In this document: piece after piece, positions 2,992-42,626 of the stretch
Position numbering within the stretch: the first letter of the stretch is position 1
Layout of the letters: each line of letters starts with the position of its first letter
Assembly (NCBI RefSeq): GCF_024713945.1
Contig: NC_134680.1
Span: forward strand, 1,574,001 to 1,638,000
From: Dermatophagoides farinae
Lineage: Eukaryota; Arthropoda; Arachnida; Sarcoptiformes; Pyroglyphidae
DNA: 64,000 nucleotides
Reading direction: 5' to 3'
Program-made: the position numbers and the translations under genes
Notes under the pieces: model-generated
Told to the model about the DNA's origin: nothing
Seen by the model: only the letters and a program-made list of their open reading frames with translations
Databases searched by the model: none

Positions 2992-5267
2992 TTATTCATT
3001 TAGATTTGATATAAAATCTATATTCGATCTGACATCATATCCTGTTTGTAAATCTTTTGCCGTTATCTTTTAGATATAAAAATTTAGAGAAACATTAAAA
3101 AAATGACATTACATTTAATACATATTTACCTTGATTTCGGTTTCACCGAAAAACATTTCCACTTCAATTTCACGTTGTAATAATTGTTGAATGGCTGGAT
3201 TAACACCGTTTGGAAATTGAATTGTATCCAGTTCTAGATAAAGTGCTCCACATTTTTGTACACCTTGATCGGTAACAAATCTAGCCATCATATTGGTAGT
3301 CGAATAAATATGAAATATACACGAATTTTGTGTGGAAAATATTGGTTTATACCGACGTTTTATCGATTCAAACAATCCAATCGATTGATTCATCTCGACA
3401 AATTTATCGAATACATCGGTACACCATTCTGTTTGATCTTGTGCACTGACCATACGTTTCGAATGAGGATGAATAGATTGATCAAATCGTTCCATAATAG
3501 CTATACCATATGTTTGCCGTACACGACGTGAACGAATCAATGTAGGATCCAGACCATATTGACATGCCCCATATAATACGGCTAGATGTGCTTGTGATGG
3601 TATTACAACCATCAATTTTGATTCGAACATCAATTTTATTTGTTGATTAATCATAGCTGAACGGGCAAAACCACCAGTCAAAAACATATATCGAATATTG
3701 TTCGATTTCTGTTCTTCAAGTATTTGACGGCATATATCAATCAATGGATCAATAACAGATCGAAATAATTGATTCATTAGAATCATATCAATTCTAATAA
3801 TACCCAATTTCGGTGAATACGATAAACCATTTGGTGCATTTTTATCGAAGAGTTTGGTTAGTTCTTTTGAGCCACCAAAATATGTGATGAATGAAAAGGT
3901 AAGCAATATGTTATATGGTGTATGATGATCTGGTTTTGCTTCTCGTTTTCGTAATTCAAATGCTTGCATCAAATCGAGATATGTGCTTGGTGATTCCTTG
4001 CGAAAACGTTGCCATCGTTTCGAACCAAAAATTTTTTCGATTATTTTTTCAAATTTCCTATTAATTTCATTCGAACCATATGGTCCACCCGTTGATTTAT
4101 GGAAGTTCTTTGATGAAACCATCTTGTTGAATTTGATGAGCTGTTATCTGTTTTGGATTAATATCCAGAATTTTATAAGCAATAAACAACTAAAATCAAC
4201 GACTTACATCAACAGTTCCACCGCCTAAATCAATAATCAGATAGCTAATTCCAGGCTCAATTGTTGATTGAATTTTTGACTTAGAATTTCTTAATTCATT
4301 AGATAAAAATTTTCGACAATATAATGATGCTACCTCGGGTTCAAGTGCAATGCGAAGCATTTCACCACATATCAAACCGGTACGTTCAGCTGCTAATCGT
4401 ATAAATTGTTTACTTTGATCCGACCAAATTGCTGGTACGGTTATAACCCATACAATATCATCATGTGTTAAACGTAATCCACATTTTTGACCAATTTCAT
4501 CTTTTGCTTGTTGACAAAGATATTCTAATGACATTGAAAAAATTTCCATTGCTTCAATCTCATAATTTTGATTTATTGGTTTTAGCTTCAGATTTGCATC
4601 GATTTTCGTTTGATTTTCACCATTCGAATAAAGTTTCATTTTAAAATTTTCAAAATAACCATATCTGAAACATTGACTTGATTTAAGATTATAATAGAAA
4701 TTTTTTGCTTCCTGTCCGAATGAATGAAATTTTCGACGATAATCCAATAATAATGACGTTCTTTTTATCATATAGTTGATTGTTAACCAAACATTAAAAA
4801 TTGGGATCGAATTTTTTGTTTGTTTAACTTACGGTACTTTGCCTTCATGTCCATCTAGACTAGAATATTTTCGCATATAATGAATTTGATCAATATCGTT
4901 TCGAAATACAAATGCATAACCGGTATATGCTGTGCCAAAATCGATAGCAACCACAATCAATGGCCTATGTTCGAATCAAATAAACACTCAATCAATTTCA
5001 TTTCAAACACAATCAAATTACATACTCGGGTTTCGGTTTCGATTCGGACAATTCAAAACAATAAGATTGATCATTGAAAATATTTTCTTTTTGTTTTCGT
5101 TGTTCACTTTGTTGTTGGTGATGGTCAATAATGAATCGAGGATGATTCTTTTCATCTGTAATGGCTGTAATTGCTGCTTGGAATTTCTGACGATTATCAT
5201 CAAATTTCCGGTAACCAGCCAAGGTAAATATAGTTCCGTAGAATTTGCAATCGATCGTTACATTCAT
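2992..5267 (-). CDS. HSPA12: HSPA12A/B-like Hsp70-family protein (one frame problem)
   Basis: Divergent Hsp70-type ATPase of the HSPA12 branch, which has the actin-fold nucleotide-binding domain without a classical substrate-binding domain. Exons in transcript order: 5267-5026, 4964-4833, 4760-4208, 4140 (or 4147)-3130, 3066-2992; about 670 aa, matching human HSPA12A/B. Seen: phosphate-1 motif VVAIDFGTAYTGY (about residue 85), RKFHSFG, WVITVPAIW, LEPEVASLYCRK, phosphate-2 motif IDLGGGTVD (about 301-309), STGGPYG and adenosine motif LTGGFARS (about 463-470). The last exon (25 codons, TAKDLQTGYDV...) matches the HSPA12 tail and is easily missed. Joining at the first acceptor (after 4148) gives the family sequence TAHQIQQDGFIKEL but then a stop; the acceptor 7 nt downstream keeps the frame open (see findings). 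The ATG at 5267 directly follows a good acceptor sequence (gcacag), so a 5' noncoding exon may exist. Confidence 0.92.
4148..4207 (-). other. HSPA12 intron 3 with tandem acceptors 7 nt apart
   Basis: Donor gtaagt follows the GGTVD codons at 4208. On the minus strand the intron ends ccaaaacag, then seven bases later comes a second AG (ataacag, exon from 4140). The first gives the conserved family residues and then a frame break near 4102; the second gives an uninterrupted frame with a non-family peptide of about 13 residues. Confidence 0.7.
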
Positions 5268-13176: not shown

Positions 13177-16100
13177 ATGTGTGACGAACAAGTATTTTTT
13201 TTTTATTTAATTTAAGTTTTAACAAATTCTAATTCTGTTATTCTCCACTTTTTTCTCTTCATAAAAAAGGAATTGGTCCAATTGGAAACATTATGTAAAA
13301 AATTATATGAATCAAGCGACTCTGATGAACGTAAACAAGCCGAATCGGCATTGTTAATGTTTTCGAATTCGTTGGATTGTCTACCAAAATGTCAGCTATT
13401 ATTAGAACGTCGTGATGTATGTGATTCAATCAATTCTCTTTAAATGTTTTTTTAAATGTTTATTTATTAAAATTTTTTTAGTCGGCATTCGCACAATTAT
13501 TAGCGGCAACCACATTGACTAAATTGATTACACGTAATCCGACCGGTCTTTCCGTTGATCAACGTTTGGATATACGTAATTATATTCTAAATTATCTGGC
13601 ATCAAATCCAAAATTAGCACCATTCGTTTTGCAAGCATTGGTCACATTATTTGCTCGTATAACAAAAGTAGGATGGGTTGATATGAAAAATGATCAATTT
13701 GTTTTCCGTGATATCATACCGCACATCAGTCATTTTGTTGGTGTATGTAAAACCATGTTGATTGTGAAAAAAAAATTATTGACAAAATTAAATTCCTTAA
13801 ATAATAGGGGACGGTAGAGTATTGTAATATTGGTGTACAATTAATTTCCACACTTGTTATTGAAATGAAGTAAGTTGATGAAAATATTTTCGATTTAATT
13901 ATGATTTATATTGATTATTAATATTTCATGAAATTGAAATCATAGTCAACCGAACGCACATGAAGCAAATCGTTCTATATTCCGTCATCGAAAAATAGCA
14001 TCATCATTTCGTGATAAGAATTTATATGAATTTTTTCAACTAGCACAAGGATTGTTAAAAAGTGCTCTTGAAGAATTGAAAAAGAATAAAATATTGTATG
14101 ATGATGAACAAACATTGATTAGTAATCTACTCAAATTGATAATCAATTGCCTTTCATTTGATTTTATCGGTGCCTCATCCGATGATTCATCCGACGATCT
14201 AACCTGTAAGCAAAAAAAAAATATTTTAAAAAATAATTTGAAAATTGAATTTTTTCTCTTCCCCTAGGTGTACAAATTCCTACTAATTGGCGACCGGCAT
14301 TTCTTGACATGAATAATCTCAAAATTTACTTTGATCTATTTCATCTGTTACCGGCCAATATATCATCACTGGTAATAATGACATCTTAACTTAATGTTAC
14401 CTATTGAAAATGAAAAACCTTTTTTTTTGTTTCACATTAGTCACTTTCATGTTTAGTACAATTAGCATCGGTTCGTCGATCATTGTTCACAAATACTGAA
14501 CGGGTAAATTTCCTAAACAATTTGATCTCTGGCATAAGAATTATATTGGAAAATCCAACAAAACTTTCCGAACCAAGTGCTTATCATGAATTTTGTCGGC
14601 TACTAGCAAGATTAAAAATTAATTATCAATTAGGTGAATTAGTCAAGGCAGATGATTATGCTAAAACGTTGGAATTGATTGCAAATTTTACGATCACCAG
14701 TCTAAGGGTATGGTCAAAATTAAAAATGGATAATAATCCTATTTAATGATAATAATATATTGATGATATCTTCCTATAGATGTGGAGTGTTGCATCCAAT
14801 TCGATTCATTATCTATTAACCTTATGGCAAAAACTAGTTACATCTGTACCATATGTAAAAGCAACTGAACCACATCTATTAGAACGTTTCGCACCAGAAG
14901 TAACACGAGCTTATATAACATCAAGACTAGAAATGGTGAATGAAGTTGTTATGAACGGTTTAGAAGATCCATTTGATGAGATTGGAATGGTACAACAGCA
15001 ATTAGAACAATTATCAACTATAGCACGTTGTGAATATGAAAATACTTGTTCAATATTGGTTAATCTGTTTGATCAAGCTGCAAAAACATATCAGGATTTG
15101 ATGCAAACAATGCCACAATCCTGTGCTGAAGTTGAGATACAAGAAAATCGTCTCACTTGGCTTGTTTATATTATCGGCGCGGCTATCGGAGGCCGAGTAT
15201 TTCTCAATAGTAATGACGAACAAGATCATATGGACGGTGAACTAGCATTTCGTGTTTTACAATTGATGAATTTCACCGATATACGTCTAGCCCGTGGTGG
15301 ATTCTGTAAAAAGCTTGATCTGGCCATTCTCAGTTTTTTTGAACAATTCCGTAAGACTTATATTGGTGATCAAGTGCAAAAGACATCTACTGTCTATAAA
15401 CGTCTATCCGATGTTCTCGGTCTAAGTGAAGAGACAATGGTTTTAAGTGTTTTCATACGTAAAATGTACGTCGATGTTTTCAAATAATATATAGTTAAAT
15501 TTAAATAATTTAATTAATCTTTCTTGCTATTTGTTTGTTAACAGAATAACCAATCTAAAATATTGGGGAAACGATGAAGATATTGTTACGAAAACATTAC
15601 AGATTCTTAACGATCTATCCATCGGTTATTCAAGTGTTCGAAAATTGGTCCAATTGGAAGAAATTCAATTCATATTGAATAATCATACTGTATGCTTTTG
15701 ATAATATAATGATAAAATAGAATTCTAAATTCTGATTAATTATTCGATTGATTGATCATTAGGCCGAACATTTTCCATTTTTAAGCAATTCTTTTGATAT
15801 AAAATATATGAAGTGCCGTACAATATTCTATACATCATTAGGTCGATTATTCATGATCGATTCGGGTGAAGATGAGGATAAGTTTGAAAAATTTATGCAA
15901 CCAATCACTTGTGAGTTGTTTTTTTTGTTGTTGCCAACATTTTTTTTATTTGATTAATTGATTCTTTTTGTTAGCCTCATTGGATACGTTGAAAAATATG
16001 CTCAATAATAAATCAATGTTTAATGAAGAAGAAACAAAAGTAAGTAAAAAGTTTCTAATCCCTTTTCTTAGTTGATTAATCAATTTTTGAAACACACAGA

Positions 16101-17559: not shown

Positions 17560-20308
17560 TCAAATAGATTTTCTTCGAAATCTTGAAAATAATGCCGGCA
17601 TTAGGCCATAATGATTACTTTCGATTTCAATGTTTACACAATTATTGATTATCTGGATGGAACCTATGGTAATTCTATCAGGTGTCGTTGCAATTACAAA
17701 CGATAATGTGGAATTCTGTGATGATAAATCAGTTATGATGAATGGTTCAAGCCATTGATGATAATCGATAAATGATTGTATTGTATGGTAATCTGGTACG
17801 CAGATTATTGATCGAATCGAATCCGAATGTTTTGTCAATATATTGTCCATTTTGATTACAGCAATTTGATCAATATCGATTGCGAATGCAATCAACAAAT
17901 CTTCAAAAGAAATTGTTTCAATTTGATTTTGAAGATGATCATAGATATTACCACGCATATCAACAAATTTCATTTCAATCGAAAGTTGTATAGTATCATG
18001 TATGAGAAAATCGATTGGCAGATTAATTCCAATCGGGTTTTGTTTATCTTCAATGTAAGGTATTTGTATGTTTTTTTCATACCTATCATTTTGTCGACAT
18101 GAAAATCGTATTTCTATGGCAAATATTCGATTGAATTTACTCCGAGAATCTAATGATACATTAAACGAAATGATTTTGATGAATGGTGGTGGACTGTATA
18201 TCTGTCGATTGATATTAATTTTAGCGGATCTTTCGATTCGAATGGGACATTGTGGCAAAGTATTCTTCACATTCAATAGATATTGTTCAAATATTTCAGG
18301 GGTTTGATGGAGTAGAAATTCCTCTTCATCCGATGTAAACACCTGTTTGATTGATGCTTCCGTTAACGTTCTTAATGCTAATAGATATATCTGTGCTAAA
18401 CTGGATGCTTCCAGGTCGGATTTTCGTTCATTTCTTAGCCATTCTAATAGATTGAATAGTGCTCCTTTAACTTTATGTGTTACACGTTGATAATATAGGA
18501 TTGATGTACAACATTGTAATGCCATTGTCGATGAATCGGCATAATGAAAAATATTTCGATGAATAAAGTTAATAAGGAATTCTATTTGGAATTCGGTCAA
18601 ATGAATTTGACGATGTGCTACTGATAGAAACCAATTGATGAATTCCAGATAAACGATATAAACTTTATAACTTGTAATGGTAACCGGTAAATTTTTTAAA
18701 CTTTCAACACTACTATTATCCTGTTCTTTTGTCATCATCATTAGTTTGGCAATGAAATTGTCGACCAATTCTTGTGCCAATTCTTTGTGATCACGGCAGA
18801 ATATACAAAATCTTTTAATATAATGTAGATATTGTGGGATGAAAAAACTATCCAACAACAATTGTATTAGACGATCGGTTAATTGTGTCCGTTTTCGTAA
18901 TGCCTGATTCATCAGATGAAACAAACCGTTTGCGGCACGTTCATAATTTCGTTTATCCATCGAACTTTGCCGATGAAGTCGATATAACATGTTGAAAAAT
19001 TCATCGTCCGATATTATGAATGCAGATTGATTCATAATCTGCAGTTTTTTTTCTTGAGTATCCGGGCCATCAAACAGAAGTGGATGTAATGAATTTAACA
19101 ATGATAATGGTGGTGAATTCAATGGTGGTTCATAAATAGATTCGAAAGCAATACGGATGAAAGCCAACAATAGTAGTCGATGACCGACCGGTATCGATGG
19201 TATTGTACAAGCTTGAACCATTTGTCGTAAAAATAATTCTTCTTCTCTTGAGCTGAAGATATCAAAACCAAATTCGATTAAAAGTTTTAATGCAAATTGT
19301 ATCTGATGAATTTGATTACTAATGATAAATTTCGATAAAAATGGTCGTAAAATAAGCAATGATATTGAATCGGTATTATATCGTCCGGATAATATCAAAT
19401 GATGAACATCCATACAGATATGATAAAATTTTATATCCGGTGTATAATCAAATTGTTGCATGAGATTACGAATTTTTTCCAAATCATTTTCTGAATCAAA
19501 TAACGGTAACATACAGTATGCTTCTCGTATATTTCTTGGTGTCCTTAACGGTTTATAATCATTCGATATTTCGATTAACATTTCCTAGTATTGAATAATG
19601 TTGAGAAATTTATTATCATCAATGAAATAAAATCATACATACAGGATAAGTGGCGGAAATTTCTCGAAGACAATCTAGACAGATATCGTATTCAAATGAT
19701 TGTTGATCACAACTTTTAGCCAGCAATGTCCGGATGAAATTCGTGAACGATTTGGATATATTATCAACACCAATGATCTATTTCGCGACTCAACAATTAA
19801 AATTCATGACATTCATTGAAATGTTGCAGAAAAATTTACCGACTCTTTGAAGAATAATAACAAAGCTGTTGCACAATAATATAAACGGGCAATTATAATA
19901 ATTCGTTGTGGGGATTTATTTCGTTCAATCAACGATAACAATGTATGGAATGTCTCTTCAACTCTTTGTCAGTGTGAAAATGAAAATTTGAATTTATTCG
20001 CGAATGAATTTATTCACTACTTACTTTTCACTATAATCATACAATGGAAACATTTGTTCCAATAATGATAACAAATGCAAATGTATTTCATTACCAAGTG
20101 AATCATCACAAAGATCACGGATAACATCCGAATGAATATCGTTGAACCATTTTGATTCGAATACAGCGAAACAAAGTTGTGTACAAATATCCGAATAATG
20201 ATCGAACCAATCTGGCGTTCGTGGATTTAATAGTAGATTCGATTGTTGTTGATGATGTTTAGATTTTATATCGATTTTTGAATTTAATCTCTTCAGAATT
20301 GATGCCAT
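17560..20308 (-). CDS. AP5B1: AP-5 complex subunit beta-1
   Basis: Large beta subunit of the AP-5 adaptor complex, which acts with SPG11/SPG15 on late endosomes and lysosomes. Exons in transcript order: 20308-20025, 19963-19840, 19777-19643, 19584-17560; introns 58-62 bp; phases consistent; 855 aa (human 878). Family matches as I recall them: DICLDCLREISATYP (human ECLRELESCKP), FALKLLIEFGFDIFSSREEELFLRQM with IPSIPVGHRLLLLAF (human ALKAAFGEALFTAQDEALLLRRL with PALPPPTHLFYLH), FAIEIRFS, ISFEDLLIAFAI, and the C-terminal ear region WLEPFIITD...LSFVIATTPDRITIGS...NHYGLMPAL (human HLEPFVVVA...YCVAIHLPPDSKLLLR...DDWAVLPLA). Mostly alpha-solenoid, no membrane segment. The tail faces XPO7, leaving 146 bp between stop codons. 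Confidence 0.88.
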
Positions 20309-27824: not shown

Positions 27825-30800
27825 ATGAATTATCAACATTATTATTATCAAAGATTTCAACAATCTTGTATTACCAAAAGAAGAACAATAATAATAAAAA
27901 AATCATTATCAAAAATGTTATTCAAATTAATATTATTTACATCGACATTTTGTCTAATATGGCAACAACTACAATTAGTACATGGAAATAATGATCAAAA
28001 TCAAAATATTACAATGAAAATTTATCATACAAAAAATTATTATACCCATCATCAACAAGAACAACAACAACAACAACAACAACAAAAAGATCAAGATCAT
28101 CATCGAACAGGTTTGTAAATTAAATTCTAAATGAATGAAATAATTTTATTCTTGTATGAAAATTAGTTGAAAAAGTAAATTAAAAAGATAACAATAAACA
28201 CTTTTTAGAAAGAATAATTGAATGTATGTGTTTATCAGGTGTAATTGTCACATATTTATACAATTGTCCATTTTATTTATTTTTAAATGATGACAACAAA
28301 TGATAATTTGACCTGATTGAAATGATTAATTAATTTAATGTTCATGGTATTTTAATGTTCTGACCTAAAGACAATGATAATGAGCGTACATATCCACAAT
28401 GTCAAAAATGTTGATTACCATTTCAAAATGGCTGTAGGGAAAAATTCCGAAAAAGAAAATCAAATCTCAATCAAAAAAAAGAAGATTAATTGTGTGTTTG
28501 GGTGACCGGTTTAATTTTGATTTATAGAACTAGATCATTGATTTTTTTTTGTTCTGTTTCCTGGTATTCACAAATCGACCGATGATAAAAGATTTGATGT
28601 ACGATGATAGAATAATCATGTTGAAAATCACTGTTTTTTCATTGATTCATTGATATTTTATTATTCATTGGCAATTATTTTATTCAAATTTTTTTAAATA
28701 AAATAAGTAAAAATAATCAATGGATGAAATGTGAATAGGCACACACACACACACTGGAGGCACAAATGATGATTGATTTAATTCAATGAATTATTATTTT
28801 TTTTTTTGAATCATCATCGATCAATCTTTATTTTTGCCATCGTGATGAAAATCATAACCATTGTGTGTTTTTTGTTTATTATGCATTTTTAACCGTAAAA
28901 ACATACAAAATGAATGAATAAAAAGATCAAATGTCAAGAACTAAATCGGTGTTGAAATCTTGCTGTAATAGTTAATCAGTGAACAGGATTAATGAAATGA
29001 ACGAATGAATAAATTAAAAATTCTTTTATTTGATTTTAAATTCATTATTTTGAGTGAAATTGGTTCTAATTTGATTGAAAAATTCCAAATAAATTTCAAA
29101 CAAACATTGTGTGCGTGTACGGTGTTCATCAAATGTGCATAGATATTCAAATGTCAATAGTTTGGCAGGTCAACTTTTTTTTCGGTTATTTTTCCTTACA
29201 ATTTATCAGGTTAATAATCTTGAAAGAAAAAATTCTTGACCATTTTAAGTGTTAAACATTTATTTTCATCATCATCATAATAAATCGAATCCATTTATCA
29301 TTATTTTGATTGTTTGATCAAACTCTATCGATTTGTTGTTGATGATGATGATGATGATTTGATTGAGATTTTTTTTTCAATCGATTCAACCAATGACAAC
29401 TATTCAACATTATGTGATCAATTGAATGAATGAAAGAACATTATTCACACAAGTTTTTTCTATGTGAATGACAGTACCAAAAATCGATAAATCGGTCAAT
29501 CGATCGATTATTGAACCAACATTCCATGGCCAATCATCATCATCATCATCGTATTGAATCAAAAATAATAAGATAAATAGAAAAAAACGAACATCTATTG
29601 ATGTGATGTCTATATGATGAATGTATGTATTGAACATTTATTTGATCAAATACAAATTCGAATGGTCATTCATATTCAAAGAGTAGGTCATTGATGATGA
29701 TGATGATGATTGTGGTCATCATTTTGGGTTAAGAAGGATTTCAACAACAACTCAACCAGCCAAAAATTGATGTTTAAATTTGACAAACAAAAAAAAAATA
29801 GTTATTTTTGTCGAGAAAAAAAAATGTCGGCATCAATTTCAGAATAAATAAGAAAATTCACCAAAAAGTATTTATTCATATCATCCAAATGATTTGGTAA
29901 TTAATCAATTAAACAATTATCCATTCGATGACGATCATTTTATCATCAAATTACTTTCTCAATGCGACATTCTAAGTGTTAACAAAGCTATCAGAAATAA
30001 AAAGTGCACATAACTGGTTACTGGTATAGTACATTATTATTATTTAGAGCAATTTCAATATGACAAAATAATAACCAGAAAAAAAAATTCATCAAGATTA
30101 ACATAGATGTTGGGATAGATAGATTTGAGATAAGTTGTTTTTTTTCCAATGATCATCATTATCATCATAGTGTTCACATTTTTTTTATGTGTGTCTAATT
30201 TTCACTAAAATATAGGGAATAGTATAATGACAATGAGAAAAGTCAAAAATAGGGTTAAATCTTTTTGTATTTTTTTTTTTTTATTTTCTTCAATAGATTA
30301 TCATTATTATTGTTCACTCAATTAACTATCTATCTATCTATCTATCTATCTAACACACTCATTCACTATCTATCTAAATCTACATTATCTAATCTGTGAA
30401 TGTATATTATGTGTGTGTGTGTGTATGCATATTTCTGCAAATCAAGAGTAACCTTTTTTTTCTCTCTTATTTCATTCACACATACACACACACACACACA
30501 AATAGCAAAAGAAATATATAATATAATATATGAAATGATAATAATGATGAACGAATAATGAATATTTCTTTTTTTTTCATTTCTTTATATATTTTTTTTT
30601 TTTTTGCTACCTGTAAAATAACCATAATAATAATAATAATATAATGTAGGTTATCTACATTCGCATCAACAACAACATAATCATTCACCACCAACAACAA
30701 CAACCGGTATTAATATTAATAATAATAATGGCGAAGGTGGTAGTAGTAGTAGTAGTAGCATTAATAATAATAATAATATGATGATAATGGATCAACAACA

Positions 30801-31287
30801 ACAGGTAGCCAACATCAATAGCCAGAAGGATAATAATAATCATCAACATCATCATATTAAAACTATTTTACCATCATCACCATCATCACAATTACAATCA
30901 ACATCATCGGGATTTATACCGATTGCCAAACCAACAATAATATCCACCTCTTCGTCAAACAATAATGAAAGAAATGCCAATAATCTTTTACAACAACAAC
31001 ATAATCCTCTTCATTTAAATCATCATCATCATCATCATCATCATGATTATAATGATAATCAACACCAACATCATCATCATCAAATTCATCATAATAATCA
31101 TCCATATCAACAACAGGTTTTAATTGTTTTTCTTTTCTTTTTTTCATGCATATATACACACCACATACACACACACACACACACATTTTTCCATTCATTC
31201 ATTCATTCATGAATTAAATTGAACAAGATAAAAAAAATGAATGAATGAAATTTATAACAACGAAAAAAAAAATCGAATAAGAAGTTT

Positions 31288-31333
<46 letters not shown>

Positions 31334-34300
31334 ATACAGACATTCACGCATACAGATCAAGATTTTAAGAGAAAGAAAATGGTCTTGGATAATTTAAATT
31401 GAAGAATCTTGATTTATTCATTTAACACATACACACAAGGACAATCTTGATTGTTAATTCTTAGAGATTATATAATTAATCGGTAATGAACAGCAACGAC
31501 AACAACAACAACAAATAGAAAATGAAATGTAATGGAAATTAAACTAAAACTTTAACTAAACTAAATAGATCGAACGGAATGTGTGTGTGTGTGTGTGTGA
31601 AAATAACAACAAACGAAGAAGAAGAAGAAGAGGAATTTTGAAAATAAATGTTAATGGCCATACAGAAAAAAAACCGTTTGTTGTATCTATTTTTAGTAGT
31701 CATCATTTGAAAAAAAAAGAAAAAAGAGATTCATATATAGTTAGTTCAGCCTGTTGTTATTTGATTGAAATGAATCAAATATTATATCGGTTTCTATTCT
31801 CTCTCTCTCTTTATCTTTCTAAAAAATTTCTTGAATCACGAAATTTTGTTTCTGTTGTTGTTATTGTTATTATGTTAGTCATTGGGTTTCAGGTTCATGC
31901 ATGCATGCAATGTATTCATTTGAATGTAATATTATTACATAACATATATATATAAACATACACACCTTATATTATAGTGATGAATATTATTACGGTTCAT
32001 TTACTAATGGCACCAATTTTTCTTTTTTAAATCTGGTTTTTTTTCTATTTTTCTCATTTTTCAACAAAAAAAATAGGATCAAACTTCGGATATGAATAGC
32101 ATTAATCCTGTATATCATGATGGCAGTAATAGTGTTAATAATAATAATGGTGATCAATCATTATATCATTCACATCATCCACATTCACATCATTCACAGA
32201 TACAACCATCAGCATCTGAATTACAGGCAAAAAATGCTGATGAATTATTTAAAGAATTTGCTGCCGGTTATAGTAATTTAAATGGTATGGATAATTTTTT
32301 TGAAGAATCTTCTTCATCATCAAATGAAAGACCTGAAACGATTGGTGGTGGTGGCCATCATTTTTTAAAAACATCATATCCATCAATCAATCAAGATGGT
32401 AGTGGTGTCAGTAATGTTGGAATATCTAAATATATGGCTACAAATGGTGTCGGTGATGATGTAATGACATCATCGAATGATAGTCCAATGATTTCTTCCG
32501 ATTCAGATATTGGTGGTGGTCATTATACAAAATCATCACCATCATCTTCATCATCATCACAGCCTTATTCGATGTATAGTACTGAAGATAATCATCAAAT
32601 GTATCCACCATCGATTAGTCATCATCATCATCATCCTCATCATCATCATACGACAACAACTGATTTTCATTCAACGAATGATCATCAAGGAAATGATAAT
32701 GATATGCATAATCTAATGAGTTCATTATCATCAAATGATGGTGGTTCTAGCTATATAAAGAATGCTATTATGAATGAATTCTCCAATCTTAGTCCAGCTG
32801 ATTTTGGTTCATTCTCCGATATGTCACCATCAATGAATAATGGTGTTGGTGATAATAACGGTGTTGGTAATAGTATGAATCCAATAAACGGTATAGCTGG
32901 ATTTCAACCAGCACCGGAAGGAGGACAGTTACCGGCACCACCAGGTTATAAACATGTTGGCTATATAACAATACCGGCTGGCGCTGCAAATCTACCAAAT
33001 ATGATATCACGACCACCGAATGGACTACCAATCATACGTCCTATATCACAATCACAATCATCATCGAATGGCGGTAACCAAAAAGATAAAAATAAAGATG
33101 GCAAAAAAATTCAGGATCAAAAAATGTCCGAATCAAAACCAGTACGAAGTTTATTGAGTAAATTAAATCCATTGAATATGTTACGGCGATTACGACAACG
33201 ACGTGAACGACGACAAACAACTGATGCCAGTAGTACAAATGATTATATGCCATCATATCAATCGGCAAAATACGGACATGGAAATTATCATACTATGGCA
33301 AGTAATTCTTATCCATCAATGTCATATCCAACCGGATATAGTAGCCTATCCGGTTTAGGCGGAATGTCCGGTCTTGGTGGAATGTATGCAGCAATGAGTA
33401 GTATGTCATCACCATTATATATGCCATATGGTTATACTGGTGGTTATGGTACAAGTGCATATGGTGGTTATAGTGCTTCTCCTTATATTCGTAATCCAGC
33501 AGCAGATATGAATTATGCAGCAACTGCTCAATCAGCAATGGCATTACCAATGATGATGCCTATGGCCGGTTATGGTGCCGCATATCCACCATTAGGTTTA
33601 GCTGCTTATGGTGCATACGGTGCTTATCCGGGTGGTCAACATCCAGGTATGGTTCAACAATCAGCCGCTTCATCATCATCAGGTTCATCATCTGGCTCGT
33701 CATCTGGATCATCATCTGGTTCATCAACAAATGATCAGGTTAGTTCAGCATTGGCTGGACAAACATTGCCTGGTGGTATCAATCTATCTGATCTACTCAA
33801 AGATGAAGAAGAGGAAGAACCATCAAAATTCAAAAAATTTATTAGTTATCTAAATCCAGTGAATGTATTTAAACGTTTCCGTAATAATACATCAGGTGAT
33901 GAACGTAAACGAATGGGACTACATCGTAAAAGACGTCAAATTGATCTCTATGAATTGATCGATCATGATACGATCAGAAAATATCGTCTACATAAACGTG
34001 ATGCAAATATCAATAATAATGATGATGATGATATCGGTAATCTTGATGATCAAAGAGATAATTTAACAATCGATGATTTTGATCATAACAACAACAACGT
34101 AACATCAATTACTAATAATGATAAAAATAATACTGATGGTGATAATGATCAACCGGAAACAGAATTCCTAACACATTTGGATACAATACCAAAAGTATCA
34201 CATGATTCATGGCGTCAAATAAAATCATCACAATCATCGATGAAACGATCAAAAATGCCATCAATGGGTAGTCGAAATTTTGAATTAATTCGTGGTGGTA

Positions 34301-34725
34301 CATATCGTGGTAATAGTAATATCGGTGGCAGTAGTAGCAGTAGTATTGATAGTAGCAATATTGGATATCGATCAACAATAATGGATGAAAATTTGGATGA
34401 AAATTTCGATTCCGATAATAATAATCATCATAATCATAATCATCAGAATAGTTCACCATTAATAACTGATCAATTGATTCAATTCAATAATAATAATAAT
34501 AATAATGTACAACCAGAATTGATGGGATTTCAAGGTTTTAATCATCATAATCATCTATCATTTCATCATCCATTTTTAGCTAAATCTGAAAAATCGGCTA
34601 AACATTTAACAGATAATAATAATAATAATGGTGATGAAGATAATAAACAAACAAATAATAATAATGATGGCCAGCTATTAATAAGTGGTGATCATGATTA
34701 TGATGATGATCGCCATACATCTTGA
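27825..34725 (+). CDS. large secreted Asn/His/Ser-rich protein with duplicated basic motif; family not recognised
   Basis: Three exons, 27825-28110, 30650-31116 and 32077-34725, with matching phases (1, 0) and GT...AG introns of 2539 and 960 bp, give 1133 aa. A second ATG at 27915 starts an excellent signal peptide (MLFKLILFTSTFCLIWQQ...VHG), so secretion or surface deposition is likely. The chain is mostly low-complexity: poly-Gln, poly-His, poly-Asn, Ser/Gly repeats. Ordered islands: about residues 527-570 (QPAPEGGQLPAPPGYKHVGYITIP); a Lys/Arg-rich segment SLLSKLNPLNMLRRLRQR (from about 609); a Gly/Tyr/Ala/Met-rich block (about 650-775, GYG, YGAY repeats) like cuticle or silk proteins; and a second copy KKFISYLNPVNVFKRFR (from about 836). 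RERRQ, HRKRRQ and LHKRD sites suggest proprotein cleavage. A cuticle/matrix protein or a precursor processed into pieces are both possible. Function unknown; the exon joins are inferred. Confidence 0.66.
28111..30649 (+). other. first intron of the secreted-protein gene
   Basis: 2.5 kb, long for this window. It contains (ATG)n and (GT)n tracts, a (CTAT)n tract at about 30327-30352 and no supported coding sequence. The donor is gtttgt after 28110; the acceptor is atgtag before 30650. Confidence 0.55.
31117..32076 (+). other. second intron of the secreted-protein gene
   Basis: 960 bp with (CA)n, a roughly 40-bp (GA)n tract at 31290-31329, (GAA)n near 31615-31631 and a (GT)n tract. No coding sequence supported. 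Confidence 0.55.
31290..31329. repeat. (GA)n microsatellite
   Basis: About 20 GA units, the longest dinucleotide tract noted, inside the second intron of the secreted-protein gene. Confidence 0.9.
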
Positions 34726-36469
34726 AATTTTTTTTGTTCTCTCTCTCTCTCTGTTTCCTTTTAGGCTCAACTAAACGGTGTTTTTTTCTTTTGTTAATTT
34801 TTTAATCAATTTCATTTTGAATCAATTAAAATCAATTGATCAGATGATTTAATTCAAAATTTTGACGAAAAAAAAACCAGAAAAAAAACAACAACAAAAC
34901 AAAACGAAACAATATTTATCCAGAATGTTAATTCCAGAAATTTTCAACATTTCTTCCATATTGAATTGCAATCACACAATCATTATAATTAGTCAATTTT
35001 ACACATTTATAACCATAATATATACACCATTTACATATATACACAAACACACAATTTTTTTTTATTCTATTGATATTTTCAAATTCTCAAATTTTTTTTC
35101 CTTAAAAAAATTCTTTTCATCTTCAAAAAAAAATCAAAATCAAGATGTGTACATAATAATCAACAACAACAATACTATTAGAAGTGGAACAATGACAAAA
35201 ACTTTGAAGATTTTTTTTTCATCATTTTTTTACATTAATCATATCAGATGATTTTTTTTTCAAATCTCAAACAAACAATTTACATTGCTCATCCATTCGA
35301 TTTTTTTTCCAATTTTGATCATCATCATCATCATCATCATCAACATCTTTGTCAATTGTGTGTGTGTGTGTATGTCTCACAAGGAAAAGTCATGAAGGTT
35401 ATACCTTCCATCCATTTTTTTTCATTCTTGTTCATTCTTTTCTCACATTTTTATTCATCGTTTTTTTCTGAAACATTTTTTTTCAATTCAATTTCTAATT
35501 CTTTTGATATTTATTATTTAAACTTTTTTCTCCAATTGCTGGATAAATTATTTCAAATGAAATTTATTGATTTTTTTTTTCCACACTCAAATACACCAAC
35601 ACCAACACGAAACAAACATGAAATCCTTATTAAACCATATTGTTTCAAACTAACATACACTACACGACAAACACAACTGTCAACAGAACTTCTTTGATTT
35701 TTTTTCATCTCAAATTCTACAACCAAAAAAAAAACGACAATTTGCTTTTTTTTACCTTTCCAAAATTTCAATTATTATGTCATTCATGATAAACGCTCAA
35801 AATATATAAATCATCATCTACTTAATATTCAATTTGAATTTTTTTCCACTCTCACTTCTCATTTTTTTTCTATGATTTATTCATTCATATTTTTCTTTTT
35901 GATATTCTGAACTAATCTCATCATCGTCTTCATCATCATCATCATCATCATTTTTTTCATTTCACTTTTTTTTTGATTGCATAAAAATTATATTTTTTTT
36001 TACCATAAATATTGAAATTATATATTTGAAAATTTGATTATGAAATAAAAATCATCATTTTTTTAAAAGAAAAAAAAATTGATAAAATTTGAAATGCGAA
36101 AAATTTTGCGCCAAACTTTTAATTCAAAACTAATATACTGCCATCTATCCTTTTTAAAATTAGTTACAAGTATGCACATGCGTAAATTATTGCATACTCA
36201 ATTGAGCGACGTTTTTTTCTGTGTATATTTTCCTCTTCCGTTGTTTGCTCGCTTCTTTCACTCACTCACTCACTCACTCATTCACTCATTGACGAAAACA
36301 CACACGTGGTTTTTCAGTTGTATTGTTCTCAAATCTCCGAAAAAATTATCATTTCTGAGCTAAGGCAAAAAAATTTTTTTTTTTTTGCAACTTTACACAC
36401 GAATCCACATTTGAAAAAAAATATTTTTTTTGATTTCATCTTTAAAAATTTCAAATCGACAACCGAAAA
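34726..36469. other. intergenic between the secreted-protein gene and RPLP1
   Basis: T-rich, with (CAT)n tracts near 35320-35342 and 35931-35950. It should hold the 3' UTR of the upstream gene and the RPLP1 promoter. No gene is supported. Confidence 0.5.
36231..36290 (+). promoter_or_regulatory. pyrimidine-rich stretch, candidate RPLP1 promoter/5' UTR start
   Basis: Ribosomal-protein genes of animals start transcription in a pyrimidine tract (TCT initiator). Here TCCTCTTCCG at 36231 and CTTCTTTCACTC at 36251 fit that pattern, followed by a (CACT)n repeat at about 36259-36280. Choice of start site is a guess; it lies about 200 bp above the ATG. Confidence 0.28.
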
Positions 36470-36829
36470 ATGTCTATCAACGAACTTGCTTGTGTATATG
36501 CTTCATTGATCCTTCAGGATGATGATGTGGCTATCACTTCGGAAAAAATCCAAACAATTTTGAAAACAGCCAACGTTGATGTTGAACCATATTGGCCCGG
36601 TTTATTCGCCAAAGCATTGGAAAATATCGATGTCAAAGGTTTGATTACAAATGTTGGATCGGGTGTTGGTGGTGCACCGGCAGCTGCTGGTGTTGGTGGT
36701 GCCGTATCTGCCGCTGCTGCAGGAGGTGATGGAGCCGCAGCTGATGATGCTAAAGATAAGAAAAAGGAAAAAGAAGCCGAACCAGAATCCGAAGAAGATG
36801 ATGATATGGGTTTCGGTCTTTTTGATTAA
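36470..36829 (+). CDS. RPLP1: 60S acidic ribosomal protein P1
   Basis: Stalk protein of the large ribosomal subunit; pairs with P2 and docks on P0 to recruit translation factors. Single uninterrupted coding exon, 119 aa, the usual P1 size. Seen: N-terminal dimerisation domain ([44 protein letters not shown]), an Ala/Gly hinge (GGAPAAAG...AAAAGG), a charged KDKKKEKE segment, and the invariant C-terminal tail [12 protein letters not shown] that contacts elongation factors. The Kozak context (cgaaaaATGtc) is good. A poly(A) signal lies 56 bp after the stop. Confidence 0.98.
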
Positions 36830-37540: not shown

Positions 37541-38027
37541 ATGGCTACAAGTTTTGTCGTTGATCGTGAAAATCTTAAACAACGTCTTACAACCTTACAG
37601 TATAATGTAACACAAAATGGAAATACCGAAGAGTAAGTTGTGTTTTTCAAATTATTATTAATTGTTTTAATTTAATCTTTCTTTTTTAATCTATCAATCA
37701 ATCAATAGACCATTTACAGGTAAATATAATAATTTCGATGAAGGTGGAATATATTCCTGTATTGTATGTGAACAACAATTATTTACATCGGAAACCAAAT
37801 ATGATTCTGGTTGTGGTTGGCCGGCATTTTTCGATTCATTAGATATGAATAAACTTTGTTTTAAACCGGATTATAAGAAAGCACCACGTATACGTACAGA
37901 AATTACCTGTGCAAGATGTGATGCACATTTAGGTCATCTATTTGAAAATGGTCCAAAACCAACCGGTAAACGTTTCTGTATCAATTCAGCATCATTGAAA
38001 TTTCAATGTTTTCCACAGCGATCCTAG
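37541..38027 (+). CDS. MSRB: peptide-methionine (R)-S-oxide reductase MsrB
   Basis: Reduces the R-form of methionine sulfoxide in proteins back to methionine using thioredoxin. Two exons, 37541-37632 and 37709-38027, split phase 2 by a 76-bp intron; 136 aa, a minimal SelR domain. Seen: the fold signature GIYSCIVCEQQLF and SGCGWPAFFD; structural zinc cysteines C48/C51 and C98/C101 (CARCDAHLGHLFENGP); catalytic cysteine C121 in KRFCINSASLKF, a Cys and not selenocysteine; C66 in SGCGWP is the probable resolving cysteine. No signal or targeting peptide is evident, so a cytosolic/nuclear location is likely. All key residues present. Confidence 0.97.
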
Positions 38028-38740: not shown

Positions 38741-41700
38741 ATGTCAACGATCAAAAGCCATGTTCGATGTTTAACATTCAATGATCCATTTTTATTGGCT
38801 GGTTTGTTTTCATTATTATTTTCATTTTTATTCGATCATTGAACTTTTGAAATATGATAATTTATTGAATTTTATTTTTATTTTTATTATATTAGGTATC
38901 GGTTCGTTTGTATTTATCTGGTATCGTAATGATAAACATATATTCCATTTTATTCGTTCAATTTCATTCAAGATGAAACAGAATATAATTGGTATTAGAT
39001 TCATCAATACGGATATTATTGATCGCAATGATCAAACGAAAATTGAACATCAACTTATTATTTATTCAATTCATTACATTTATTATTGTTCAATACATTT
39101 TGAAATGAACGATGTAAATAATTTAGAATTTATTATCAATGCAAAATATATTAATCAATATATGATACTTGATTTAATCAACGATACGACCAATAATGAA
39201 TCGATAATTATGATAAATGCACGAAATGAAGTGGTCATACAACGAAATCTTAAACAAAACCAATGCAACAACAGCAAACAATATTTTAATCACCATATTT
39301 TTGGTCCACAAAAATGTATTCTTTATTCGGCAAAAATTCTTGAATCGTCATTGAATGAAAATTATATAATCATAGCATCTGGAACGGTATTCACTCAGAT
39401 TTTAATATGGTCCATTGTGTTTCAAACAGATGATTCAAAATCGGATGAGAAACCATTAGTGCAAGAGCTACAAACATTACATGGCCATGATGGTGTTATT
39501 TTTTCCATCGATTATAATTCGAAGCTTAACATTCTAGTTACCGCTTCGGATGATCGAAGTATTCGCGTATATGGAGTAATTCTTGTAATTTTCAATCACA
39601 ATCAAAGAATCGTCTATCTATATGGAAAATGAATCGATTTCAATTGACACATACATATTATGGACATGAAGCTCGTATATGGCGTGTAATGATTGTAGCC
39701 GCCACTAACACCATAACAGATTCTTCCATGTGTATATCCGTTGGCGAAGATTCATCATTAATCATATGGTCATTACACGAACCATTTGGAATGTTAAGAC
39801 GGAAACGTTTCGCACGAAATAACCGAATCTGGAGCCTATGTACAACCGATGATCAAATTATTTGTGGTGGTAGTGATGGTTCCATACAATTCACATGTAT
39901 TGAAGATATTTTGCAATTAAATCGATTCAAAACATTCGAATGGAGCCGAAAATTATCCTCTGTGAAAGCTATATCATTTTTACGATCAAACATATCAAAC
40001 ACTTTACATACTTTAACTGCTTGTGTTAAAGGTGAAATTTTTATCTGTGATAATAATGATGTCATCTCTACCATCTCTATTGATCAGCATCAAGAATATA
40101 ATCTTGATGAAATTTTTGGTAATTATATAAAAATGGCAGCCAATCATAGCAGAAATATGGTTGTGATCGGTTCGATATTCGGTCATTTAGGTGTGATCAG
40201 AATGATTCCCAATTCAATGGTTGTCAAACTAGTCTATCTGGAAAAAATGTTCGAAAAGAAAATAATTGATATTAGTTTTATCGATGATGATGATCGATTA
40301 ATGATCTGTTTACTTGATGGTTTAGTGAAAATTGTTCAGATTTATGATGATGAAAATTGCAATTGCAGATTAAACATTGGCCAACAAGATTATCGATTAC
40401 CTAACAGTAAACACCAATGGTGTTCATGTGGACTTTTATACAAAAATCTATTCATCATTGGTGATTATTCGGGTAACATTTTATCATATTGGTCTGATGA
40501 ATCGGAACCATTCCAAAAATTATGGCATATTCATGGTCAAAATGGTGTGACCTGTATTAGACGACAGTCAAAATCTCGATTTGTTTATTCTAGTGGTCGA
40601 AATGGACGCATCATTGAATATATAATGATTGAAGATGATTTCGGTGATAAAGTTGTCGATTTTCGTAAACTACGAACGTATGCATCATTTTATGATGTTG
40701 AATGGATTTGTGGATTTGAATTCGATAGCCGAACAGAGAGGCCAAGTTTTGTTTACGGATTTAATTGGCGTAAATTTATCGTCTGGAATATTGACAACGA
40801 TCAAACCGTTTTGTTTGAAGAAGATTGTGGTGGGGGTCATCGATCATTCGACGTTTTCATTGAACCATTCGATGATGATGAAGACGGATTAATACGAATT
40901 GAATTTAGCTTCAGTAAATCGAATACAATGAAACAGGTTGGCCGTATTTGTCATCATTCACCACTATCGAAATCCAAATTGTGTTTCTCTTCAATACCAC
41001 GAAAGATTAATTGCTGTACACAAATGATTATCGATCAATCAGTTTATTTTATGATTGCCGGTGAAGATCGATCAATTCAAGTGATTGGTTATGAAAAAAG
41101 TAAAAAAGAAAATCACTTCAATCTTATTGAAGTTTTACATGCTCATATTGCTACAGTGAATGCCATCAGATGTTTGTCAAACAACGATACGATAAATAAT
41201 ATGACATATGCTATTTCGGTTGGTAGTCGATCACAAATGATTATATGGCGATTTTGGCATGATGATGATCATCAACGATTAATTTGTGAAGAAAAATCTG
41301 TGAATTTTCTCGGTCTTTTCAATAAACAGTTAGAATTTGAAACTAAAATTCGCAAAACTGATAATGATGATAAACTTCTTGAATTAGATGTCCGTTATAT
41401 GGACGTTGATTTCATACGACTCAAATCAGATGAAAATCCAGATAATGTTCAATTCCAAATAGTTGTTGCCTGTTCTGATGCTTCATTTCGGATATTCAAT
41501 TATTGTGAATATCGAAATAAAATTGAAATTCAACATAAAATTCAATGGGGCAATTCTTGTCTGTTGAAATGTCGAATTTTACTTCGAAACGATTACCTTT
41601 CATCATCACCACTAGATGACAGCAATATTACTGCGGTTACAACAAACGATGGTTATATTCATTTATGTTCAATCAATTCAATCAATCAATATTCAATCAA

Positions 41701-42626
41701 CAAAAAAAATAATAATAATGATGATGATGATGATTATCATCGTTTATTATCACGACAAATTCATCGATCCAGTATCTGTGCATTTGATTGGATGTTAATT
41801 AATAATGGTAAGTTGTTTTTCATATTCTTCGTTAATTAATTAATCGTTTTGTATTTTTATTTTTAAATAGAAATTTTAATGATTGCAACCGGTGGTGATG
41901 ATAATCGAATGATCATAACATTGATTAATGTTTATTTTGTTGATGTCGTTAATCAAAGTAGCAATCGTCAGCAGCAGCAAGTTAGATTAAATTTTTTACG
42001 ATCATTCAGCCAACAGATCTCAGGCCATACATGTCAAATAACAGGTTTGTTTTGTCATTATACTACTAAGCAGGGTCTATTTGTGTTTTGATTAATTTAT
42101 TTGCTCAATCAATCAATCGATCGATTTATTTGTCATTTTATTTTATGCTTATTCATTCATTCTTTGCTTATATACATTTTTTATATATATATTCTATTAG
42201 ATGTAAAGTTTACAAATGAAAATGATTATCGCAATTTGATAAGCATTTCGATCGATCAACAAATGATTTGCTGGCGTATACATATTGCCGATAATGATGA
42301 TGATGATGGTGATAAAATTCCAAATACAAAAATCATTGAATCAAACAAAACGATCGATTCAATTATATCGATTGATCGACAATTAATATCCATTGCTGAT
42401 GTTTCATCATTTTGTCGTTTGTTTATCGATCATTGGAATAATAATAATGATAATAATAAAAGGTTCGTTTTTACATTGTTACTTGACACGTTTTGTTTCT
42501 GATTTCTTTTCTTTTACAATTTTCAGCACTGATCAAATAGAAACATCAAATTGGCTGATTTGTGGTGATGGATTTCAATTGATACGTATGAATGGCAAAA
42601 AAAATCGTTCCATTTTGATTGAATAA
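38741..42626 (+). CDS. WDR6: WDR6, WD40 partner of the tRNA 2'-O-methyltransferase FTSJ1
   Basis: Multi-WD40 protein; with FTSJ1 (yeast Rtt10/Trm734 with Trm7) it directs ribose methylation at tRNA position 34. Six exons: 38741-38801, 38896-39566, 39608-41807, 41871-42044, 42201-42462, 42527-42626; phases agree; 1155 aa (human 1121). Family landmarks: N-terminal IGSFVFIW, the ECALYS-type segment as KCILYSAKIL, HGHDGVIFSIDYNSKLNILVTASDDRSIR, YYGHEARIWRV, SVGEDSSLIIWS, HGQNGVTCI, SGRNGRIIEY, the hallmark CGGGHRSFDV (human CGGGHRSWAF), AGEDRSIQV, SGHTCQITG, ISIDQQMICWR and ICGDGFQLIRMN. The 41-bp intron after SIR is unusually short and could be a frame error instead (see findings). An AATAAA is present just past the stop. 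Confidence 0.92.

Follow-up and report, generated by a model that had tools for sequence, protein, structure and literature searches.

The locus at positions 27825 to 34725 of a 64,000-nucleotide stretch of Dermatophagoides farinae DNA (the window, located on contig C4 of 7,117,990 bases) raises the question of what a large low-complexity protein without recognisable relatives may be for. The earlier note had read it as a secreted protein, perhaps a cuticle component or a processed precursor. We give roughly one chance in two (0.5) to the explanation that the protein would be a convertase-processed secreted precursor of extracellular structural material, namely a cuticle- or eggshell-like matrix.

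The gene lies on the + strand in three exons (27825-28110, 30650-31116, and 32077-34725), which give 1133 codons and one stop when spliced. The junctions proposed earlier, 28110/30650 and 31116/32077, are exact and join the exons in frame. Agreement in phase is, however, weak evidence by itself, since 64 of the 360 GT/AG pairings tried around the exon boundaries (5 × 8 × 3 × 3) are likewise open and in phase. Only two of these 64 models use the best-scoring donor at both junctions. One is the proposed model, and the sole difference in the other is the acceptor before 30737. Scored with an approximate generic matrix, the donor at 28110 is good (2.1% of the GTs in the window score as high) and the donor at 31116 is mediocre (33%), the latter counting against our explanation.

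Because in-phase joining is weak evidence, coding was tested separately by synonymous-codon choice alone. Coding usage was derived from 200 kb of the genome, in which 23 ORFs reach 300 aa, and the non-coding background from the two introns and the downstream DNA in the window. Exon 3 scores 102.9 bits (best other frame, 72.4) and exon 2 scores 18.5 bits, values reached in 0 of 500 simulations in both cases. Exon 1 from Met31 scores 4.9 bits, which 4 of 500 simulations equal, and one other frame scores 4.4. The codon scores favour coding in each of the exons, most weakly in exon 1, and the three-exon gene is probably real. The stretch 33241-33765, which corresponds to a Gly/Tyr/Ala/Met block, scores 8.0 bits when taken alone, and two of the five other frames score higher there (9.8 and 23.5). 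The case for coding in this stretch rests on the open frame because the codon score is weak, and this weakness counts against our explanation. The start position should also be noted. The previously assigned start at 27825 (Met1) is less likely than that at 27915 (Met31), since adding codons 1-30 lowers the exon 1 score from 4.9 to 0.3 bits. The start is thus probably at 27915, which gives a protein of 1103 aa, and codons 1-30 look untranslated. The features of the gene are as follows.

27915 to 28110, + strand: coding part of exon 1 from the likelier start, Met31 (codon score; donor after 28110)
27915 to 27986, + strand: probable signal peptide, residues 31-54, with cleavage after VHG (hydrophobicity and the (−3,−1) rule only)
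30650 to 31116, + strand: exon 2, low-complexity, rich in His, Asn, Gln, and Ser (splice; codon score)
32077 to 34725, + strand: exon 3, 882 codons and the stop (splice; codon score)

The protein contains the His/Asn/Gln/Ser homopolymer runs and the Gly/Tyr/Ala/Met block that the earlier note had described. Among the 23 homopolymer runs of at least four residues, 15 use a single codon throughout, as in trinucleotide expansions. Such tracts had been regarded as the mark of an unusual protein, but they are common in this genome. For an ORF survey, 20 stretches of 10 kb were taken, all on contig C1, and 68 ORFs of at least 150 aa were obtained. Of the 13 that reach 400 aa, four come close to exon 3 (0.353) in their fraction of Asn, His, Gln, and Ser (0.317 to 0.333). 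The idea that the homopolymers are the chief novelty was rejected after this survey. What speaks against the rejection is that the fraction in the whole protein, 0.39, is exceeded by only one of the 68 survey ORFs and that of exon 3 by two.

The signal peptide had been called strong. A hydrophobic core and one site fitting the (−3,−1) rule indeed exist (MLFKLILFTSTFCLIWQQLQLVHG, cut before NNDQ), and the best 11-residue hydrophobicity is 2.39 in the signal versus 1.41 elsewhere in the protein. The hydrophobicity of the core is, however, ordinary, as 30 of 472 Met positions in the survey ORFs have a core at least as hydrophobic, and this counts against our explanation. The protein is probably secreted, judging from this segment, the signal itself being only probable. 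Cys is absent from residues 55-1133, that is, from all 1079 mature residues.

Relatives were sought in PDB, prokaryote and viral collections, Pfam/NCBIfam, and the genome of D. farinae itself. No Pfam family exceeds the cut-off for the protein from exons 1 and 2, for exon 3, or for three islands, and NCBIfam gives no match for exon 3 and two islands. The search of PDB with exon 3 gives just three weak matches, which start in His-rich tags (E 0.084 to 0.45). The statement that the protein belongs to no known family thus holds within Pfam, NCBIfam, and PDB, with nothing over the cut-off and no PDB relative. Two Pfam matches of one island, Cyto_heme_lyase (16.9 bits; cut-off, 23.8) and Pdase_C33_assoc (12.4 bits; cut-off, 25), were set aside as lying below the cut-offs. 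No relative was found in viral contigs with two islands or in prokaryote genome contigs with positions 32914-33075 as the query. The prokaryote genome contigs gave one locus (L036) with 33769-33999. The match there spans 43 codons, depends on the word GLHRKRRQIDL, and runs antisense to a frame of 417 codons on a bacterial MAG contig of 60% GC; its E-value holds only for stretches picked for containing such a word, and the match was rejected. Protein searches of the 22 contigs of the own genome (62,435,336 bases) for a second copy, with exon 3, two islands, and the Gly/Tyr/Ala/Met stretch, returned the self match only. A Der f 2 stretch of 106 residues from PDB matches this genome at 99%, in keeping with D. 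farinae as the species. The protein may well have orthologues in other mites.

The window contains other frames around the gene. Just downstream is a 60S acidic ribosomal protein frame at 36446-36826 (+), and beyond it lie frames for SelR (37671-38024) and for WD40 (38775-39629 and 39554-41836). From 42000 to 64000, no stop-to-stop frame exceeds 143 aa, indicating long introns or gene-poor DNA. On the other side, a 674-codon frame at 17563-19584 (−) weakly matches the middle domain of AP5B1 (26.3 bits; cut-off, 24.5), and the frame next to it, at 14780-15484 (+), is that of exportin-7. A 342-codon frame at 3118-4143 (−) matches nothing in Pfam at E 0.001. The window gave no match in the tRNA and Rfam searches.

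Exon 3 encodes a basic motif in two diverged copies, at residues 603-624 and 832-853, a duplication that the earlier note had missed. Each copy, with L-N-P-x-N in it, leads to a furin-type site of the form R-x-[KR]-R before Q (copy and site together are hereafter called a cassette): RQRRERR before Q, ending at residue 630, and RKRR before Q, ending at residue 871. The two sites flank the Gly/Tyr/Ala/Met block, and the predicted cleavage product between them has 241 residues. The positions are as follows.

33130 to 33195, + strand: cassette 1 motif, residues 603-624, ESKPVRSLLSKLNPLNMLRRLR (motif comparison)
33193 to 33213, + strand: furin-type site 1, residues 624-630, RQRRERR before Q (motif)
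33214 to 33936, + strand: predicted middle product, residues 631-871, 241 aa (putative cleavage)
33238 to 33693, + strand: Ser/Gly/Ala/Tyr/Met block, residues 639-790, no Cys (composition)
33391 to 33483, + strand: first copy of a diverged tandem repeat in the block, residues 690-720 (repeat comparison)
33526 to 33630, + strand: second copy of the repeat, residues 735-769 (repeat comparison)
33817 to 33882, + strand: cassette 2 motif, residues 832-853, EPSKFKKFISYLNPVNVFKRFR (motif comparison)
33925 to 33936, + strand: furin-type site 2, residues 868-871, RKRR before Q (motif)
33994 to 33999, + strand: extra dibasic KR, residues 891-892, a possible minor site (dibasic list)

The alignment of the two cassettes scores 45. 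When the second segment is shuffled, one of 5000 trials does as well, and when the whole protein is shuffled, none of 2000 does; the score also exceeds the maximum of 43 among 100 scan-wide nulls on the masked protein. Behind the probable signal peptide, three R-x-[KR]-R motifs occur at two places versus 0.06 expected, and none of 20,000 shuffles contains three. Among the survey ORFs, none of the 23 that reach 300 aa has two such motifs, but one of all 68 does (207 aa, locus L016), so precursors are not alone in having R-x-[KR]-R pairs, and this counts against our explanation. The cassette core, searched for as a DNA pattern, matches at seven places in the genome, two in the gene and five elsewhere, while the reversed control pattern matches at one. 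The five outside matches lie in frames of 22, 23, 26, 40, and 110 aa, which are probably non-coding. Amphipathic helices in the cassettes are not above shuffles (1112/2000 and 742/2000 as high), which counts against our explanation. Convertase P-domain exons are present in the genome, with five matches that exceed the cut-off, spread over four places, one of them with an internal stop. The earlier suggestion of a processed precursor fits the two furin-type sites.

The composition of the block should be noted. Residues 639-790 contain 17% Ser, 16% Gly, 14% Ala, 14% Tyr, 10% Met, and 9% Pro without Cys, and there are 12 GY/YG pairs. The tandem repeat in the block scores 65, and none of 300 segment shuffles is as good, the highest being 63. 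Nonpolar residues account for 54.6% of the block, 47.3% of the middle piece, and 35.3% of the mature protein, and the value of 35% counts against our explanation.

A plausible course of events would be as follows. The D. farinae gene, single as far as exon 3 shows, would encode a secreted pro-protein of ~1103 residues, which the signal peptide is predicted to direct into the secretory pathway. The two diverged cassettes may present R-x-[KR]-R before Q to a furin-like convertase; the motifs themselves are evident, and the cleavage is putative. The cuts would yield an N-terminal His/Asn/Gln/Ser-rich piece of 576 residues, the middle piece of 241 residues, and an acidic Asn/Asp-rich C-terminal piece of 262 residues. 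The Ser/Gly/Ala/Tyr/Met-rich middle piece without Cys is the candidate working product. It may polymerise, perhaps with tyrosine cross-links, in an external matrix such as cuticle or eggshell, and the flanks may keep it soluble until it is cut free. Its tissue, assembly, and cross-linking are all conjectured from sequence. A bolder extension, which we regard as doubtful, is that the duplicated LNPxN basic cassette is a release module on both sides of an assembling block in an extracellular polymer of the mite lineage. In this extension, the polymer would be made as a three-part pro-protein, and the cassette, whose core pattern matches no other long frame of the genome, would offer a modular means of holding a silk- or shell-like segment soluble until both of its ends are cut.

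The alternative that survives best, though unlikely, is an intracellular, perhaps nuclear or RNA-binding, low-complexity protein, to which exon 1 has been misattached and in which the basic runs serve as nuclear-localisation signals instead of cleavage sites. Many frames of the genome are rich in homopolymers, the signal core is ordinary, the donor at 31116 is weak with 64 of 360 junction combinations in phase, and the KKDKNKDGKK-like and RRLRQRRERR runs are rich in lysine and arginine. However, no DNA- or RNA-binding domain was found with Pfam, both basic sites follow copies of one motif and are both followed by Gln, and the absence of Cys from 1079 mature residues and the cuticle-like Gly/Tyr/Ala block point to the outside of the cell.

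The two convertase-type sites, together with more dibasic pairs, would also suit a secreted precursor from which a convertase frees soluble factors (antimicrobial, salivary, or signalling peptides). Arachnids do possess antimicrobial peptides rich in Gly. We consider this alternative rather improbable, since the released piece is as long as 241 aa, the dibasic list contains only one Gly-Lys-Lys and no set of repeated short peptides is present, and the composition of the block better suits a structural role. It is very unlikely that the protein is a type II membrane protein starting at Met1 (27825), with 30 cytosolic basic residues and the hydrophobic stretch as an uncleaved anchor: an in-frame Met1 and a basic segment of 30 residues after it speak for this, but with codons 1-30 included the coding score drops to 0.3 bits from 4.9, and a fitting cleavage site follows the hydrophobic stretch, which is short. 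Least probable of all, the frames would be kept open by triplet repeats or would be misjoined exons of different genes, as the many single-codon runs and the weak codon signal in the Gly/Tyr/Ala/Met stretch might suggest, whereas exon 3 is open for 882 codons with a strong synonymous-codon bias, the scores of exons 2 and 3 are reached in 0 of 500 simulations, and a protein motif is duplicated.

The point of moderate interest in this probable pro-protein is the twin release cassettes, not the homopolymers. Where the protein would be cut, and which new N-termini would arise, follows definitely enough from the cassettes for a single proteomics experiment to decide. Cuticle and eggshell proteins of mites are poorly catalogued, and the D. 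farinae protein, if secreted, is worth looking for in mite extracts. Novel chelicerate-specific cuticular families are very likely still to be found, according to a passage of PMC12105342.

Among known systems, convertase-processed precursors carry R-x-[KR]-R behind a signal peptide, and here three such motifs at two places lie behind the probable signal. Neuropeptide precursors fit less well, as comparison of the dibasic list with the sequence gives one GKK and no repeated short peptide. CPR and CPAP proteins, which are chitin-binding cuticular families, are likewise secreted arthropod matrix proteins, if the prediction of secretion holds, but no chitin-binding domain of the R&R or PF01607 type was found with Pfam. 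The Drosophila proteins dec-1 and sV23, the latter a vitelline-membrane protein with a prodomain, are processed insect eggshell precursors. The likeness is an analogy of mechanism only, in that a secreted precursor is cut and assembles into a matrix, and we know of no twin LNPxN cassettes in dec-1 or sV23. Vitelline-membrane proteins undergo dityrosine cross-linking, as stated in a passage of PMC10697589.

In the passages of PMC12105342 on hypothetical cuticular proteins (CPHs), the criteria are no domain annotation, a predicted signal or extracellular location, top-decile expression, and at least one cuticular trait, the traits being no Cys, richness in Gly/Pro/Ala, at least three AAP(AVL), abundant PV/PY, and tandem repeats. 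The same passages give more than 70% of Dermatophagoides pteronyssinus CPHs as shorter than 300 aa and more than 90% as more than half nonpolar. Like those CPHs, the present protein has no recognised domain (Pfam; NCBIfam for exon 3 and two islands), a probable signal, a mature part without Cys, a tandem repeat, and a Gly/Tyr/Ala-rich block, yet it contains no AAP(AVL) and seven PV/PY pairs. Unlike the usual CPH described there, it has 1079 mature residues, of which 35.3% are nonpolar where more than 50% is typical though optional, and only the block reaches 54.6%. Without claiming membership in a named cuticular family, we suggest by analogy that the protein, which shares some of the CPH criteria, would work like a processed matrix precursor.
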